From Karstenula rhodostoma CBS 690.94 (Eukaryota; Ascomycota; Dothideomycetes; Pleosporales; Didymosphaeriaceae): a stretch of DNA of 64,000 nucleotides. The stretch spans positions 758,051-822,050 of the forward strand of contig MU001508.1 of the NCBI GenBank assembly GCA_010093485.1. The letters run 5' to 3'. Shown piece after piece: positions 3,619 through 63,635 of the stretch (its first letter is position 1; each line of letters opens with the position of its first letter). The translations under genes and the position numbers were made by a program. The notes under the pieces are model-generated. The model searched no databases and was not told where the DNA came from. It was given only the letters and a program-made list of their open reading frames with translations.

Positions 3619-4266
3619 TCATTCCCCGAGCTTCTTCTGACCTCTCACAAGCGCATACTGCTCAAGCCCGTCATGCTTACCCTGCCATTCGTGACGATAC
3701 TCAGCAAAACCTTCGCACTCGGGTTTTGGAATCCTTGGGAACATCCCCATCTTTAGTATGTACATGTGAGGGACAATCTCGGATTGACTCATGATGGGCC
3801 TTGGTATACTCCGTCAATATTGCCAGTCCTAAGCTTCGTATGAATGCATAACGTAAATAAAGGGCAATAGGTAATGATCACTCACGACCCACAGTTCCCG
3901 CAAAGTGACCTCTTCACGCACTTCCCACTTCCAGTCGCCCAGTCATCGTACACTTTCAGCGTCCCGTTCTTATCCTCGTACGTCACCTTCTCTTTCTCAA
4001 TCGCCATGTTCGACGACACAAACGATCCTGATGCTTTGCGACAGTTTGCGCAGTGACTGCATCTCGTTAGCAACAGGTCCGCGACTCAAGTTGCTGAAGA
4101 CATACCACAAGTGACCGCGAGGTTTATCCCCGAAGAGCCCTTTGTCGTGGATGGTGGCACTGATGCTGCCGCAGAGACAGGTGCCGGTCATTGGCTCGCT
4201 GAACTTCGAGATGTCGCGCTGTTTTAGATCGCCCGTGAATTCGGACTTGAAGGCGATGTTCGACAT
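3619..4266 (-). CDS. GFA / CENP-V domain zinc protein
   Basis: Three exons (4106-4266, 3886-4056, 3619-3799 on the minus strand) give 170 residues. Splicing restores the zinc-binding cysteines of the glutathione-dependent formaldehyde-activating fold: TCLCGSI in exon 1, CHCANCRKASG across the first junction, and LCGNCGSPI across the second. The family binds zinc through these cysteines. Members include bacterial Gfa-like enzymes and many uncharacterised fungal proteins, so a formaldehyde-glutathione role is only a family-level guess. The C-terminus runs on to a typical KMGMFPRIPKPECEGF segment. The start MSNIAFKSEF was chosen over an upstream in-frame ATG because it begins just before the conserved domain. 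Its 3' end faces the metacaspase. Confidence 0.88.
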
Positions 4267-4680
4267 GGTGAGATGGATCAATTGATTAGATGGAGTGTTT
4301 CCGCCGGGGTATCGATCGTATGCGTGAAAGTAGTAATAGATCAACTAATGCAGAACAGGGTTAGTGTTCACTTAGATTTTAGGATAGGTACCTGTCCTTT
4401 CTTACAAGCAAGGAATTAGAGCAAAGACATGCAACAAGAGCAAGAAACGAAACCAGCCGCTTAATCACTAAGCACTTCTCTAGCCCTGTACCTCTGCAAT
4501 GCACGACTGCATGCGACTCGCCCATCCCGCTGACTCCGCACCCTGATCCGATGTGCGACCCCTCGCGATCCGTGTGCTAACGTTTACACCTATCCACGGC
4601 CGATAGGCCGCGTTCTGGAAGCTGGACTACCCCACCGTCAAAAACACCCCCTCTTCCGGAGCAGGAGCAAAAAATCCGCC
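4267..4680. other. Intergenic, no gene seen
   Basis: About 410 bp upstream of the GFA gene and downstream of the tRNA gene. It should contain the GFA promoter. I see no convincing coding sequence. Confidence 0.5.
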
Positions 4681-4685
4681 AAAAA
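4681..4685 (-). terminator. Pol III-type T-run after the tRNA-Phe gene
   Basis: Five consecutive T residues on the minus strand, preceded by TCTTC, begin 8 nt after the tRNA discriminator base. This is a normal RNA polymerase III terminator position. It supports descent of the interrupted tRNA from a Pol III gene. Confidence 0.6.
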
Positions 4686-4693
4686 GAAGAAGT

Positions 4694-4909
4694 TGTCGCT
4701 TCTGTGGATCGAACTGGTACAATGTTAGACATTGAAACGATCCAATTGTAGACATTATCACTTACCACAGTCTGTTGCGGATTAGCCCGAGTCCGGGTTC
4801 ATTGAACGGCTAGTAAACTTACACCTCCAGATGTCTTCGTTGCGAACCGAAGTTTGCCGCCAAGGCGGATTGCTTCAGTCTGGCGCTCTCCCAAGTGAGC
4901 TAAAGCGAC
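4694..4909 (-). tRNA. tRNA-Phe (anticodon GAA) interrupted by three insertions
   Basis: Read on the minus strand, the gene starts GTCGCTTTAGCTCACTTGGG. Its acceptor arm GTCGCTT pairs perfectly with AAGCGAC near the 3' end. The anticodon stem is CCAGA/TCTGG, with loop CTGAAG plus A and anticodon GAA at 4876-4874. The variable loop is AGGT plus A. The T arm is CTGTG / TTCGATC / CACAG. Three insertions interrupt it. A 40-nt insertion at 4833-4872 lies at the canonical 37/38 tRNA intron site and contains CTTC, able to pair with the anticodon. A 51-nt insertion at 4772-4822 lies in the variable loop. A 52-nt insertion at 4714-4765 lies between positions 53 and 54. The last two run GTAAGT to CAG, with CTAAT and CTAAC branch-like sites about 11 nt before the acceptor. 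Removing all three leaves exactly 73 nt. Outside the acceptor stem this nearly equals yeast tRNA-Phe; the differences seen are C15 and A48. It could be a working gene needing both splicing systems, or a pseudogene. Confidence 0.85.
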
Positions 4910-5544
4910 TGAATTGATGCCAAGATTTAAAATCTAAACGTAAATATTGATAGTAAAAAACCGGCCGGAACGTACACGTCTTTGCTGCTGCCCTGAAATT
5001 GGAACTGGACTTGTGCGGGGCAAGTGCGACTTCGGCTCTTAGCTTTGCGGAGATCTCAAAGACAGACTAGCTTGAAAGAAAACTCAGGCTGAATGCGGTA
5101 AGATGGATATCAAGCGTTACACTGTCCGCTTAGGAACGCTGTCTTAACTGGATTAACCCAATGCTGGCTTACTGTGTCGAATCGTTGGAGGGCGGTCGCG
5201 CCGCTTCAGAGTGGCGAAACGATGAACGAGGTTCTACAGCTGTCGTTACACGGATCACCATATGTATTGGCTGCCCAAGGTACATTGACATACGTATATT
5301 GTCCTTGGGTGATGTTCTCCTAAAGCATGATTTCCAGGATATGTGCCGGCCATCAACTACGTTCATTTATATAGATCGCAGGCCTGCCGACAGACATTAT
5401 GCATACACACAGCGTTGCAGGAGAAGACATACAGTAAGTCAAATTGAGGCTGTACAAGTGTGCCGGTAAACTGTGGAAAAGCGCTTGCAGCGATGTAGGG
5501 ATCAAATGAAGCCTTTGCATGCATCAGTAATGTGAGTCAGTGTG
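4910..5544. other. Intergenic, no gene seen
   Basis: About 635 bp between the tRNA 5' end and the 3' end of the endonuclease gene. A short A/T-rich stretch lies at about 4920-4965. The 102-codon open frame at 5161-5469 (+) has no recognisable features. No RNA gene was seen. Confidence 0.45.
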
Positions 5545-6655
5545 TTATGACTCCTCATCCTTTTCCCGTTCGTCCTTGTCTGGTAGCCGTACGTCAACCC
5601 AGACAGGAACATGATCACTCGGTCCCCGCTCTACCTCGCTGTCCATTATCCCCGCCCCACGCACCATCCCCCTATCCCACATGCTCTTCCCAACGACAAC
5701 ATAGTCTACTCTGTCACAGCTACTCCCCCACTCTCTTCCCCTCGGGAACCACGTAAACCTCTTCTCACCCTCATTCATCCTCCGCCAAACATCAACGCCA
5801 TCAAACACCTTCCCCTCATCCCGCCTCTTCCCACCAAGAAACCTTGCATTGAAGTCCGCTCGGTTCACAACATGCTGCTGAGGAAACGTGCGCAGCTGGG
5901 GATGTCCGTCAATTCTGGCAGGCGCAACGTTCATGTCGCCAGCGAGGAGGATTTCCCACCCCTTTTCTTCCAAACTTAGACACTCCTCCGCAAGAAGACG
6001 GTGAAACGAGAGTTTCCGATCATGTCGAGTTCCGCACACGGCACCCGTTGCAGGGTCGCGGCAAGCATTGTCCGTCCCGTTGACAGCGTATATATTAAAC
6101 AATGCAAGCTTTGCAGACGGACCGACCAGCTCCACAACAGACACGCGACCCTCACTGTCCCAATCCACGGTGCGGACTTTCACTGCGAAGTCTTTGAAGA
6201 CGTCGGCGCGTACGATGCTGCACACGCCGTAGACCTTTCCGCTGCCTCGTGGACCTCTTGCGTTGTGTGAGTCGCAGGGGAGTGTGAAGTGTGCTTCGTA
6301 GCTTGGGCCTGTCGTTGTGTTTGAGGTTTCAGTGGGTAGTCTCGCGTTCACTGCGCTTCGGACTGCGTCTTGTGTTTTCACGTCTTTGGCTGCGATCTTG
6401 ACTTCTTGTAAGAAGAGGAATGCGGGCCAGTGGTGTCTTCTGATAAAGCCACGGAGGGAGGCTGAAGGGATATTCGTATTTGGTAATCGACTTTTGTAGG
6501 AAAGGCTTGATGCCGTTGATGTTCCACGAGAAGATGCGCATTGTACCAGCGTCAGGTGCTGCGGCAGGCGGAGCTGTGGAGATTCTGCCCGTCTTTACAT
6601 TGTTGGTAGAAATCTTTCGCCTTTTTGCGGGTGGAGGACTGATTTCGTGGTTCAT
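5545..6655 (-). CDS. Exonuclease III-family AP endonuclease, apparent frameshift
   Basis: The N-terminal part starts MNHEISPPPAKRRKIS, with a basic PPAKRRK nuclear-localisation-like motif. It continues to MRIFSWNINGIKPFLQ, the first strand of the endonuclease/exonuclease/phosphatase fold. The remaining domain is in another frame: SLRGFIRRHHWPAFLFLQEVK (metal-binding Glu in LQEVK), then LLAGDMNVAP, RVDYVVVG and GPSDHVPVWVDV, which carry the catalytic Asp/Asn and final Asp-His. The two frames overlap without any plausible GT-AG intron; a +1 shift between about 6440 and 6490 would join them. The family cleaves DNA at abasic sites in base-excision repair. The product, about 360 residues, lacks the C-terminal GRF zinc finger of long Apn2 proteins. 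The shift may be a sequencing error, a strain mutation or real decay. Confidence 0.78.
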
Positions 6656-56387: not shown

Positions 56388-59300
56388 ATGGCTTATCCAC
56401 CGCCGCCGCCGCCGCCTCCCCCTCCAGGGGCGCCTGGCTCTTCGTTCGGAGCTCTCCCCCCACCCCCACCTCCCCCTCCCCCAGGACCCCCTGGCACTGT
56501 CGGCCCACCTGGCCTACGACCGCCCGTCGACCCACAGGTAGCAAAGTTTGCGCAGAAGAAGAAGGACTGGCTGCGGCGACAACGGCAGAGATTTGGCGAG
56601 AGGCGAAAAGCAGGGTTCGTCGAGACGCAAAAGGCGGATCTCCCTCCGGAGCACTTGCGCAAAGTTTTCAGGGACATTGGAGATGTATCGCAGAAGAAGT
56701 TCACAAGCGACAAGCGAAGCTACTTGGGCGCGCTCAAGTTCATGCCTCATGCTGTGCTGAAGTTATTAGAGAACATGCCCATGCCATGGGAGAGCAGACG
56801 CGATGTCAAGGTTCTTTATCACACCAACGGATGTTTGACTTTGGTCAACGAAGTACCACGCGTGATCGAGCCCGTCTTCCATGCGCAATGGGCCGCAATG
56901 TGGATTGCGATGCGCAAGGAAAAGAGCGACCGACGGCATTTCAAGCGTATGCGATTCCCGCCATTCGATGATGAAGAGCCTCCCATGTCATACTCGGAGA
57001 ACATCGAGGATGTGGAGCCATTGGAGCCGATCCAGTTGGAACTTGATGAGGATGAAGATGGCCCGGTGTACGACTGGTTTTACGAGCACCGACCTTTGCT
57101 CGATACGCCGCATGTCAACGGACCGAGCTATGAGAAGTGGAACCTGGACCTGCCTCAAATGGCCACACTCTACCGTCTGAGCGACAAGCTGTTGAGCGAT
57201 CTAGTGGACAAGAATTATTTCCACATGTTCGACCTGGACAGTTTCCTGACCGCGAAAGCCCTAAACGTAGCAATCCCTGGAGGACCCCGTTTCGAGCCTC
57301 TTTACAAGGATATCGACCCGAATGATGAGGATTTTGGCGAATTCAATGCGATCGACCGCATCATCTTCCGGTCTCCCATTCGAACCGAATATCGTGTATC
57401 CTTCCCGTTTCTTTACAACTCCCTTCCGCGATCCGTCAGACTTGCGTGGTACTCTCACCCCCAAGTTGTGTATGTTCGCAGCGATAATCCTGATCTTCCG
57501 GCGTTTTACTTCGATCCCATCATCAATCCGATTTCATTGCGAGCAGTAGCCCCAACGAACATCACGGTCAGCCATGAAGACGAGGTCTTCGGTTACGGAA
57601 ACGACGAGGATGACGAAGACGACTTTCAACTTCCTGACGAGGTGGAGCCCTTCATGGCCGAAGAGGAGCTCTACACAGACGAGACAGCTTCGGCAATTGC
57701 CTTGTGGTGGGCACCACATCCATTCGACAAGCGCTCAGGCAGGATGGTACGAGCGCAGGATGTTCCCCTCGTGAAGCAGTGGTACCTCGAACACGTCCCT
57801 GCTGGACAGCCGGTCAAAGTGCGGGTCTCATACCAGAAGCTGCTCAAAACCTACGTGTTGAACGAGCTCCACAACCGGCCCTCGAAGGCGCAAAACAAGC
57901 AGAATTTGATGACAACGCTAAAAAGCACCAAGTTCTTCCAACAGACTAAGATCGACTGGGTGGAAGCCGGTCTGCAGGTCTGCCGGCAGGGTTTCAACAT
58001 GTTGAATCTACTCATTCACCGAAAGAACCTTACTTACCTGCATCTCGACTACAACTTCAACCTCAAGCCCGTGAAAACCCTCACCACCAAAGAACGAAAG
58101 AAGTCGCGATTTGGAAACGCCTTCCACTTGATGCGCGAGATCCTGCGTCTGACCAAGCTGATTGTCGATGCCCAGGTGCAGTACCGTCTTGGCAACATTG
58201 ACGCTTTCCAACTTGCTGATGGTATTCTGTACGCTTTCAACCACGTCGGCCAGCTCACAGGAATGTACCGCTACAAGTACAAACTGATGCACCAGATCCG
58301 ATCGTGTAAGGATCTGAAACATCTCATCTACTATCGTTTCAACTCCGGCCCCGTTGGCAAAGGACCTGGATGCGGTTTCTGGGCGCCGGCATGGAGAGTC
58401 TGGCTATTCTTTATGCGTGGAATCATCCCACTGTTGGAGCGATGGCTTGGTAACCTTCTTTCTCGACAATTTGAAGGGCGTCACAGCAAGGGCGTTGCGA
58501 AGACGGTCACCAAACAGCGTGTGGAGTCTCACTTTGATCTTGAGCTTCGCGCTGCAGTAATGAGCGATCTTATGGACATGATGCCGGAAGGTATCAAGCA
58601 GAACAAGGTCAACACCGTTCTACAGCATCTTTCGGAAGCCTGGAGATGCTGGAAGAGTAACATACCGTGGAAGGTTCCAGGTCTACCAGCGCCAATAGAG
58701 AACATCATCCTTCGTTATGTTAAGAGCAAGGCCGATTGGTGGATCTCTGTCGCACACTACAACCGCGAGCGTATTCGGCGAGGCGCCACCGTCGACAAGA
58801 CGGTTGCGAAGAAGAATCTGGGAAGATTGACGCGCTTGTGGTTGAAGGCTGAGCAAGAGCGTCAACACAACTACATGAAGGACGGTCCTTACGTCTCGTC
58901 AGAGGAAGCTGTCGCCATCTACACGACGATGGTGCATTGGTTGGAGGCGAGGAAGTTCCAGCCCATTCCTTTCCCTAGTGTCTCCTACAAGCACGACACG
59001 AAGATTCTCATCCTTGCACTTGAGCGCCTTCGTGAAGCGTACTCAGTCAAGGGCCGCCTCAACCAGAGCCAGCGTGAGGAGCTTGCACTCATTGAGCAGG
59101 CATACGACTCCCCTGGAACGACCTTGGCGAGGATCAAGCGATTCTTGTTGACGCAGCGAGCGTTCAAGGAAGTCGGCATCGATATGAACGACAATTACAG
59201 CACGATCAATCCGGTATACGATATTGAGCCGATGGAGAAGATCACGGACGCCTACCTTGATCAATATCTCTGGTACCAAGCCGACCAACGGCATTTGTTT

Positions 59301-62300
59301 CCAGGTTGGATCAAGCCTTCCGACTCCGAAGTCCCGCCACTACTCACCTATAAGTGGGCTCAGGGTGTCAACAACCTGGACAAGGTGTGGGAACATGAAA
59401 ATGGAGAATGCAACGTCCTGATTGAGACGCAATTGTCCAAGGTGTACGAGAAGATGGATCTAACGCTGCTCAACCGTCTGCTCCGGTTGATCATGGACCA
59501 CAACTTGGCAGACTACATCACGGCTAAGAACAACGTTCAGCTTAACTACAAAGACATGAACCATGTCAATGCTTATGGCATGATTCGTGGCCTACAGTTC
59601 TCTGGCTTTGTCTTCCAGTTCTACGGACTTGTCTTGGATATTTTGTTGCTTGGTCTGCAGCGAGCGAACGAGATCGCAGGTGCTCCGGAAAGCCCGAACG
59701 ACTTCCTCCAGTTCAAGGATAAAGAGACTGAGGTCCGCCACCCAATTCGCCTGTACACCAGGTACATCGATCGTATCTGGGTGTTCTTCCGATTCACCGC
59801 CGAAGAATCGAGGGATCTGATCCAGCGATTCTTGACCGAGAATCCGGATCCCAATTTTGAGAATGTCATCGGGTATCGCAACAAGAAGTGCTGGCCGCGC
59901 GACTCCAGGATGCGTTTGATGCGCCACGATGTCAATCTTGGACGTGCCGTATTCTGGGACCTGAAGAACCGTTTGCCTCGATCCATTACCACGATAGAGT
60001 GGGACGATACTTTCGCGAGCGTATACAGTCGCGACAATCCCAACCTCCTCTTCTCCATGAACGGTTTCGAGGTGCGCATCCTGCCCAAGATTCGCAACCT
60101 CAACGAGGAGTTCCCCACGAAGGACAGCGTGTGGTCACTCGTTGACAATGCCACGAAAGAGCGCACTGCACATGCCTTCCTTCAGGTGACGGAAGAGGAT
60201 ATCCAGAAGTTCAACAACCGCATTCGGCAGATTCTGATGTCCTCAGGGTCAACGACGTTTACCAAGATCGCGAACAAGTGGAACACTACGCTTATTGCGC
60301 TGTTTACGTACTACCGCGAGGCAGCTGTGTCAACCGTCAACCTGCTTGACACCATCGTCAAGTGTGAGACCAAGATTCAAACACGTGTAAAGATTGGTCT
60401 GAATTCCAAGATGCCTTCACGCTTCCCTCCAGCGGTCTTTTACACCCCAAAGGAACTGGGTGGTCTGGGTATGATTTCAGGATCCCATATCCTGATTCCT
60501 GCTAGTGATAAGCGGTGGTTCAAGCAGACCGATACTGGCATCACGCACTTCCGTGCTGGTATGTCCCACGATGAGGAGACATTGATTCCGAACATCTTCC
60601 GGTACATCATTCCGTGGGAATCTGAGTTCATCGACTCGCAGCGTGTGTGGATGGAATACTCACAAAAGCGACAAGAAGCACATCAACAGAACCGACGACT
60701 AACACTGGAGGACTTGGAGGACAGCTGGGACCGAGGTCTACCTCGTATTAATACTCTCTTCCAGAAGGACCGTAGCACTCTCAGTTTCGACAAGGGTTTC
60801 CGAGCAAGGACCGAGTTCAAGATCTACCAACATATGAAGAGCAACCCATTCTGGTGGACGAGCCAGCGACACGACGGCAAGCTTTGGAATCTGAATGCTT
60901 ACAGGACGGACGTTATTCAGGCTCTTGGTGGTGTCGAGACTATTCTTGAGCACACGCTCTTCAAGGCGACCGCTTTCCCGTCCTGGGAGGGTCTGTTCTG
61001 GGAAAAGGTACGTTCTTCACTTCGATTCCCCATTGCTTGGCGAATAGTTTGAGTACTGCATTGCTGCTCCTACGGTAACACAGGATACTCGGATTATTGA
61101 CTAGGCACTGTTTTACAAACTGAACTAACTTGTGGTAAGGCATCTGGATTCGAAGAGAGCATGAAATTCAAGAAGCTCACGAATGCCCAACGATCCGGTT
61201 TGAACCAAATTCCCAACCGTCGATTCACCCTGTGGTGGTCTCCTACGATCAATCGCGCCAACGTCTACGTCGGTTTCCAGGTTCAGCTTGACTTGACTGG
61301 TATCTTCTTACACGGCAAGATTCCGACACTGAAGATCTCCTTGATCCAGATTTTCCGCGCGCATTTGTGGCAGAAGATTCACGAGTCAGTCGTGATGGAT
61401 CTGTGCCAGGTCTTTGATCAAGAACTAGAAGCGTTAGGCATCGAGACAGTGCAAAAAGAGACTATCCATCCTCGAAAATCTTACAAGATGAACAGCTCAT
61501 GCGCTGATATCTTGTTGTTCGCCAGCCACAAGTGGAGCGTTTCGAACCCTTCCCCGCTTCAAGACAACAAGGATCAAATGGGAGCTACTACAACGAACAA
61601 GTTCTGGATCGACGTTCAGCTCCGCTACGGTGATTACGATTCCCATGATATCGAGCGTTACGTTCGCGCGAAGTATCTTGACTACACCCAAGACAGCATG
61701 AGTATCTACCCATCAGCTACTGGGTTGATGATCGCGATCGACTTGGCCTACAACTTGTACTCAGCCTATGGCCAGTATTTCCCCGGTCTCAAGCAGCTTG
61801 TTCAACAGGCCATGGCGAAGGTCATGAAGGCTAATCCAGCCCTTTACGTCCTTCGCGAGCGTATTCGAAAGGGTCTACAGCTGTACGCTTCGGAGAGCAA
61901 CCAAGAATTCCTCAACTCACAGAACTACTCCGAGCTGTTCAGCAACCAGGTTCAGCTGTTCATTGACGATACCAACGTCTACCGTGTCACTATCCACAAG
62001 ACCTTCGAGGGTAACTTGACCACCAAGCCCATCAACGGTGCCATCTTCATCTTCAACCCTCGAACCGGACAGCTTTTCCTAAAGATCATTCACACTAGTG
62101 TCTGGGCTGGACAGAAGCGTCTTGGTCAATTAGCGAAATGGAAGACTGCGGAAGAAGTTGCAGCCCTCATCCGATCTTTGCCCGTCGAAGAACAACCGAA
62201 GCAGCTGATTGTAACTCGAAAGGGTCTTCTCGATCCCCTGGAGGTTCACTTGCTCGACTTCCCCAACATCTCCATCCGTGCATCGGAGCTGCAACTTCCT

Positions 62301-63635
62301 TTCCAGGCTGCGATGAAGGTGGAGAAACTTGGCGATATGATTCTTCGCGCGACTGGACCTCAGATGGTGCTTTTCAACCTTTACGATGAATGGCTGAAGA
62401 CAATCTCGTCCTACACGGCGTTTTCGCGTCTGATTCTCATCTTGCGCGCCTTACACGTGAACCAGGACAAAACCAAATTGCTCTTACGCCCCGACAAGAC
62501 GGTTATTACACAGGAGCATCACATTTGGCCGACGCTGGGTGATGACGAGTGGATCAAGGTCGAGGTGCAACTTCGCGATCTCATCCTCAACGACTACGGC
62601 AAGAAGAACAACGTCAACACCTCGTCGCTCACCAGCAGTGAAGTGCGCGACATCATCTTAGGAATGGAAATCTCAGCACCTTCAATGCAACGTCAACAGG
62701 CTGCCGAGATCGATGCGCAGCAACAGGAGCAGCAACAACTGACCGCTGTGACCACGAAGACCCAAAACATCCACGGCGAGGAGATGGTCGTTACTACAAC
62801 GTCGCAATACGAACAAGCATCTTTCGCTTCCAAGACAGAGTGGCGCACCAGGGCAGTGGCAACTTCGAACCTGCGCACACGTGCCAACAACATCTACATC
62901 AACTCTGAAGATGTCAAAGAAGAAGGCCACTTCACCTATGTCATGCCAAAGAACGTTCTGAAGCGGTTCATCACCATCGCAGACTTGCGGGTACAGGTTG
63001 CAGGCTACCTCTACGGCCGATCCCCGCGAGACAACGACCAGGTCAAGGAGATTGTAACCATTGTCATGATACCTCAAGTTGGCAATACTCGCGATGTACA
63101 GCTGCCCAAGACCCTGCCGCATCACGAGTACCTCAACGACCTTGAGCCCCTGGGTATAATTCACACTGTCAGCGGCAACGAGCCTCCCTACATGCAAGCT
63201 AGCGATGTCACACAGCACGCTCGTTTGATGAATACCCATTCGAGCTGGGATAAGAAGACTGTCTCTATGACGGTTTCATTCACTCCCGGTTCAGTCTCGC
63301 TCGCCGCCTGGGCGCTCACCCCAGCAGGCTACAAATGGGGCGCGGAAAACAAAGACACCATGTCCGACAATCCGTCTGGCTTTTCCACCTCTTTCGGTGA
63401 GAAATGCCAGCTCCTGCTCTCCGACAAGATCCGCGGCTACTTCCTGGTCCCCGACAATGGCATCTGGAACTACAGTTTCTTGGGCAGCGCCTTCGGTACG
63501 GTGGAGAAGAGGCCAGTGAACGTAAAGCTGGACACCCCGGCGAGGTTCTATGATGGCGTGCATCGGCCGCTGCATTTCCACAATTTCGCGGAGTTGGAGG
63601 ATGTATGGGTGGACCGCGAGAATACATTTGAGTAA
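56388..63635 (+). CDS. PRP8: Spliceosome core protein PRP8
   Basis: Two exons (56388-61007 and 61140-63635) give 2371 residues. The fungal N-terminus has two poly-proline runs (residues 4-33). It is followed by the long, almost invariant PRP8 body; examples are [40 protein letters not shown] and [20 protein letters not shown]. The domains are the N-terminal, reverse-transcriptase-like, endonuclease-like and RNase H-like regions and a C-terminal MPN/Jab1 domain ([20 protein letters not shown] onward). The MPN domain lacks the catalytic His-x-His-Pro motif, as in all PRP8. PRP8 is the U5 snRNP scaffold that surrounds the spliceosome active site and controls Brr2. The intron lies between WEK and ASGFEESMK. 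The length shows there is no PRP8 intein. It ends 365 bp before the window edge. Confidence 0.98.

Follow-up and report, generated by a model that had tools for sequence, protein, structure and literature searches.

A gene for tRNA-Phe(GAA) interrupted by three introns lies on the minus strand at positions 4694..4909 of the window, that is, of the whole 64,000-nt stretch of Karstenula rhodostoma DNA analysed here. Its 216 nt reduce to 73 nt (37+10+6+20) once the three insertions are removed, and the spliced form is tRNA-Phe(gaa) by ARAGORN. An initial sequence-only reading had proposed this reduction, and its exon and intron coordinates proved exact, base for base. Exon 1 (4873..4909, 37 nt) covers tRNA positions 1-37 and has the same sequence in all four tRNA-Phe genes of the assembly. 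It is followed by intron I1 (4833..4872, 40 nt), which occupies the canonical 37/38 site and is of the tRNA-endonuclease type. Exon 2 (4823..4832, 10 nt, positions 38-47) leads into intron I2 (4772..4822, 51 nt), a spliceosomal-type intron between positions 47 and 48 that reads GTAAGT...CTAAT...CAACAG and recurs in 4/4 tRNA-Phe genes. Exon 3 (4766..4771) consists of 6 nt, A48 and the 5′ half of the T stem. It abuts intron I3 (4714..4765, 52 nt), also of spliceosomal type, which separates positions 53 and 54, reads GTAAGT...CTAAC...ACCAG and is found in three of the four genes. Exon 4 (4694..4713, 20 nt) supplies positions 54-73. The branch-like motifs are CTAAT at 4781..4785 in I2 and CTAAC at 4724..4728 in I3, with the A located 10 and 11 nt, respectively, before the last intron base. 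The GTAAGT starts, CAG ends and branch motifs about 11 nt from the acceptor, all described from the letters at the outset, are thus present.

After intron removal, the anticodon GAA and a cloverleaf are present by both programs applied. ARAGORN reports a full cloverleaf for the spliced 73-mer and makes the same tRNA-Phe(gaa) call when only the 37/38 intron is retained. RNAfold predicts the same cloverleaf for the spliced form, at a z-score of -1.63 that is not striking by itself; when I1 is retained, its best fold is not a cloverleaf and the anticodon loop is paired with the intron. The unspliced gene yields no Rfam tRNA match within positions 4000-5600, and ARAGORN gives no tRNA match in the window and none in the unspliced gene with its intron search. 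A chance arrangement is excluded because all four tRNA-Phe genes found share it.

The acceptor, D, anticodon and T stems are perfect, as first claimed, but this description does not extend to the tertiary 15-48 pair, which is unusual. C15 and A48 occupy these positions in all four tRNA-Phe genes, instead of the usual G15-C48. Among 57 other distinct tRNA genes, the 42 with A14 were counted; 36/42 carry G15-C48 or A15-T48, and none has C15. The tertiary 15-48 pair varies among known tRNAs, and for this reason the C15/A48 combination is not taken as excluding function. A48 is the first base after I2, and the C15/A48 change may be linked to intron gain.

Copies of the gene in the assembly

The 44.3-Mb assembly, comprising 29 contigs, contains four tRNA-Phe(GAA) loci on four contigs, designated C6, C11, C17 (the contig of the window) and C18. 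A 29-nt pattern of the 5′ half, allowing up to 3 mismatches, matches the whole assembly four times (control 0). The corresponding 21-nt pattern of the 3′ half, also with up to 3 mismatches, finds the same four loci, all exactly (backward control 2), and the spliced 73-mer, searched with an E cut-off of 10, hits the four 5′ exons and nothing else. The exons are 73/73 identical across the four genes. I1 (38-43 nt) and I2 (50-54 nt, GTAAGT...AG between positions 47 and 48) are present in 4/4, and I3 (52-55 nt, GTRAGT...AG between positions 53 and 54) is present in the C11, C17 and C18 genes and absent from C6. Counting the tRNA-Phe genes, a check proposed at the outset, thereby gives four in total, each with at least one GT-AG intron.

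No tRNA-Phe gene free of GT-AG introns was found in the 44.3-Mb assembly; one could lie in unassembled DNA. The Rfam tRNA search scored 62 of 1177 candidates, and the resulting tRNA list is therefore incomplete; none of its 54 matches falls at the four tRNA-Phe loci and none is called Phe, the one without a clear call reading as an ordinary non-Phe tRNA.

These counts bear on the possibility that the interrupted genes are dead, insertion-bearing copies and that the cell uses other tRNA-Phe genes. Insertions in the D or T arm of eukaryotic tRNA genes are usually deemed to mark pseudogenes when they occur in one of many synonymous copies, according to the available text of PMC4090602. An intact tRNA-Phe gene elsewhere, which the sequence-only reading had named as evidence for a dead copy, is missing from the results of all three separate assembly searches. 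Moreover, the exons are identical in 4/4 genes while the introns have diverged, a pattern at odds with dead copies, which we consider highly improbable. The same pattern points to selection on the exons, and the introns look selected for their splice signals. An assembly or sequencing artefact is scarcely credible: the four loci lie on contigs of 1.4-2.0 Mb and differ in their flanks and in their intron sequences.

Splice signals and divergence of the GT-AG introns

All seven GT-AG introns of the tRNA-Phe genes begin with GTRAGT, end in YAG and measure 50-55 nt. Each carries a YTRAY branch motif, with the A placed 10 nt (I2) or 11 nt (I3) before the last base. For comparison, 43 distinct candidate introns, defined by pattern and not individually checked against proteins, were drawn from a pool of 291,711 bases of DNA of this genome, overlaps included and tRNA introns masked. 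A length of 45-59 nt is seen in 34/43 of these candidates versus 8/28 in a reversed control, and the branch A is placed 10-11 nt before the intron end in 19/43 versus 2/28. The likeness to protein-gene introns noted in the sequence-only reading extends to donor, branch spacing, acceptor and length, all of which match the pattern-defined introns. Joining the reading frames of the window across protein-gene introns leaves 4 to 21 candidates per junction, and no weight is placed on it.

Between genes, little else of I2 and I3 is retained. Their interiors, computed minus the donor and the last 16 nt, align at identities of 0.38-0.61, compared with shuffled means of 0.47-0.50. The I3 introns of C17 and C18 form the only pair with clear residual similarity, the other interiors being mostly at the level of shuffled sequence. 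RNAfold finds no more structure in I2 and I3 of the window than in shuffles (z 0.40 and -1.04), and such a lack of excess structure is the expectation for spliceosomal introns. The further suggestion that introner-like elements might be involved is not supported: a 311-bp query containing the window gene, searched with an E cut-off of 1, hits no locus beyond the four tRNA-Phe genes, and the majority of the intron interiors are no more alike than shuffled sequences.

I1 is of a different kind. Its identity between genes is 72-86%, and its element CTTCGG (CTTTGG in C18) can pair with CTGAAG of the anticodon loop. With a 37/38 site in an otherwise intact anticodon arm and possible anticodon pairing, it resembles ordinary endonuclease substrates and belongs with the canonical 37/38 introns of nuclear tRNAs.

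The presence of an endonuclease-type intron in the same gene lends some plausibility to a model in which I2 and I3 are also cut by the tRNA splicing endonuclease, as proposed for the non-canonical introns of Cyanidioschyzon, their GT-AG appearance being incidental. Cyanidioschyzon and the Guillardia nucleomorph do possess tRNA genes with several introns, and certain eukaryotic splicing endonucleases are inferred to recognise non-canonical sites, although the splicing of the Guillardia introns is called unknown there (available portions of PMC4090602). However, the central 4-bp helix of a bulge-helix-bulge motif, sought in the expected register at I2 and I3, is complete in just 1/7 introns. What I2 and I3 conserve is GTRAGT, the branch motif and YAG, not structure, whereas I1 keeps its 72-86% identity. 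Cleavage of I2 and I3 by the endonuclease appears very unlikely, and spliceosomal removal is the favoured reading.

The comparison with these organisms also sets the present genes apart. The accessible sections of PMC4090602 describe intron sites in the T arm of Guillardia nucleomorph tRNAs and a tRNA-Phe(GAA) with two introns. The Karstenula genes resemble those of the Guillardia nucleomorph and Cyanidioschyzon merolae in that a single nuclear-type tRNA gene contains two or three introns (PMC4090602). The Guillardia introns are 3-24 nt long, occupy non-canonical positions and are not described as GT-AG in that available text (PMC4090602). In Cyanidioschyzon, bulge-helix-bulge motifs seem critical and the introns are likewise not described as GT-AG there (PMC4090602). 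In contrast to both, I2 and I3 keep GTRAGT, the branch motif and AG, and bulge-helix-bulge pairing is not kept.

Pol III signals and predicted maturation by two splicing systems

The window gene carries an uninterrupted Pol III A box, TAGCTCACTTGG, at 4891..4902 on the minus strand and a B box, AGTTCGATCC, at 4706..4715 on the same strand. Both boxes are present in 4/4 genes, with the A box uninterrupted and I2 located between the two. I3 falls next to the B box, which survives because the intron ends in AG directly before TTCGA; the DNA of all three I3 genes still reads AGTTCGATCC. Upstream, three genes have a TATA element whose first base lies at -41 to -45, and the window gene has AATATT at -39, within the TATA-like element AATATTTA (4941..4948, minus strand). 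A run of T5-T7 starts at +7 to +10 in 4/4 genes, and in the window gene this terminator is a T5 at +9 (4681..4685, minus strand). None of the four genes contains an internal T4, which is weak evidence, since T4 occurs in only 6/34 comparable candidate introns. Together, the TATA-like elements, the A and B boxes and the T-run terminators indicate transcription by Pol III, and only intron sites harmless to the internal promoter seem to be tolerated.

The same signals weigh on a scenario in which the C6 copy, bearing I1 and I2 and lacking I3, is the sole source of tRNA-Phe, perhaps keeping I2 as an extended variable arm, and the three I3 copies are silent. Without I3, the T arm of the C6 copy is indeed uninterrupted. 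The three I3 copies nevertheless share the same exon sequence and retain both their Pol III signals and their splice signals, and I2 keeps all its splice signals in 4/4 genes, including C6. A sole contribution from C6 is therefore very unlikely.

We consider it very likely that this is a functional Pol III tRNA-Phe gene whose precursor would be matured by both the spliceosome (I2 and I3) and the tRNA endonuclease (I1). From what is seen directly, namely the gene structure, the copy number in the assembly, the conservation pattern, the splice-signal match and the Pol III signals, we infer transcription, both splicing reactions, their order and a dependence of Phe decoding on the spliceosome. 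In the proposed pathway, RNA polymerase III would transcribe the gene, and the spliceosome would remove the GT-AG introns from the variable loop (I2) and from between positions 53 and 54 (I3). The tRNA endonuclease and ligase would remove I1 from the 37/38 site. Splicing by the spliceosome would probably be the earlier event, taking place in the nucleus, since the T arm and variable loop have to be made whole before the ends are processed, the tRNA is modified and exported, and the endonuclease measures the tRNA body. Since none of the four tRNA-Phe genes seen lacks the arrangement, Phe codons in this fungus would be translatable only if the spliceosome processes a Pol III tRNA precursor. Counting against this pathway, the 10-nt and 6-nt exons between introns would force stepwise splicing, and C15 together with A48 is an uncommon combination in a functional tRNA. 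The uninterrupted U6 genes and the weak features of an interrupted tRNA-Pro copy, both described below, also speak against it.

The proposal that this tRNA may need both systems, or that spliceosomal introns can insert into tRNA genes, is supported as far as DNA can support it. It is likely that every tRNA-Phe gene of this fungus needs the spliceosome as well as the tRNA endonuclease, and that spliceosomal introns can repeatedly enter tRNA genes at sites that spare the Pol III boxes.

Ectopic spliceosomal introns are already known from other RNA classes. The U6 gene of Schizosaccharomyces (fission yeast) has an mRNA-type intron that is thought to have arisen by reverse splicing, according to the accessible text of PMC10484740. 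The tRNA-Phe genes share with it a spliceosomal-type intron within a Pol III-made RNA (PMC10484740). U6 itself functions within the spliceosome, and its intron sits close to the catalytic bases, whereas tRNA-Phe is a host without a link to the spliceosome. Unlike U6, the tRNA-Phe genes carry one or two such introns each, in addition to an endonuclease-type intron. In the rDNA of lichen fungi, ectopic spliceosomal introns are described that yeast removes from Pol I rRNA (available part of PMC8527467, citing Bhattacharya et al. 2000). The likeness there is to spliceosomal introns in an ascomycete structural RNA (PMC8527467); the RNA class and the polymerase differ, and in the present case the introns interrupt every copy found of an essential tRNA. 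With the U6 and lichen rRNA introns, there are earlier cases in which the spliceosome acts on RNAs not made by Pol II.

For nuclear tRNA genes, the literature searched, with preprints and most subscription journals outside its scope, contains no report of spliceosomal introns. Such introns are likewise unreported in the available portions of PMC4090602, PMC8450103, PMC11782384, PMC13149111, PMC8527467 and PMC10484740. In the accessible text of PMC8450103, the authors of tRNAscan-SE 2.0 put the limit for eukaryotic tRNA genes at one intron, unlike the tRNA-Phe genes here, which have two or three. Within the sources available, tRNA is thus a gene class for which no spliceosomal intron was found described.

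If the proposed maturation holds, a whole isoacceptor family requiring both machineries would break the division between the substrates of the spliceosome and those of the tRNA endonuclease, and the capacity of the spliceosome would bear on how Phe codons are translated. The genes would also offer a natural substrate for asking if the spliceosome acts on short Pol III transcripts that have no Pol II tail, and intron gain by reverse splicing would become testable in a highly expressed non-coding RNA. The results imply that tRNA finders miss such genes (ARAGORN reports none in the window, and Rfam 0/4 of the Phe genes), and a "missing" tRNA of a fungal genome may be a multi-intron gene.

Other tRNA and Pol III genes

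A tRNA-Pro(TGG) gene at C3:1354660-1354795, on the reverse strand, carries a 12-nt intron at 37/38 and a 51-nt GT-AG intron. The latter reads GTACGC...CTAAC...CTCAG and occupies the same 53/54 site as I3 of the Phe genes, a recurrence that speaks for the proposed pathway. ARAGORN finds a full cloverleaf in the spliced form; the best RNAfold structure keeps the acceptor and T stems and not the D stem drawn by ARAGORN. This interrupted copy may or may not be functional, given its weak donor (GTACGC) and a first T4 at +43; in its GT-AG intron, the branch A and the intron end are 13 nt apart. A neighbouring tRNA-Pro(TGG) gene, some 0.7 kb distant, lacks the GT-AG intron. As to a possible common origin with the Phe introns at 53/54, comparison along with 34 protein-type candidates ranks the Pro intron 1/35 for the I3 of C18, 2/35 for that of C17 and 30/35 for that of C11. 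The comparison with shuffles, more favourable when taken alone, gives 1 and 4 of 300 for C17 and C18, respectively, and 183 of 300 for C11.

Pattern searches were extended to other tRNA genes. CTAA..AGTTCRANYC has 45 matches versus 69 in the backward control. Three of the 45 are Phe genes, one is the tRNA-Pro and another three (one Ser, two Ile) are tRNA genes of the ordinary kind; the remaining 38 show no convincing tRNA by acceptor and T-stem pairing. GTAAGT..AG..TTCRANYC has 53 matches (control 60), three of which are Phe genes; among the other 50, six examined with their flanks reveal no tRNA, and 44 were judged from the matched letters only. For tRNA-Asp, at first seemingly missing, five ordinary genes are present, and no tRNA-His was found with D-arm patterns. 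Ordinary 37/38 introns occur in many tRNA families of this genome, including Asp, Gln, Lys, Ala, Cys and Thr.

Two U6 snRNA genes lie at C3:1527927-1528462, about 330 bp apart on opposite strands. Neither contains an intron, as both copies match the family over its full length, so Pol III genes in general have not been invaded. A pattern for tRNA-Phe with I2 has no match in either prokaryote genome contigs or viral contigs, sets from which the genome of the window itself and very near genomes may be omitted.

Elsewhere in the window, positions 56388-63635 of the plus strand hold two long open frames of 1554 and 824 aa with a small gap in between, possibly an intron; they read as a putative Prp8, the core spliceosome protein. 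The best named protein matches of the SEA-complex gene in the window are to Paraphaeosphaeria, Didymosphaeria, Paraconiothyrium and Kalmusia, at 78-88%, which places the fungus within or close to Didymosphaeriaceae (Pleosporales), and an unnamed protein matches at 91%.
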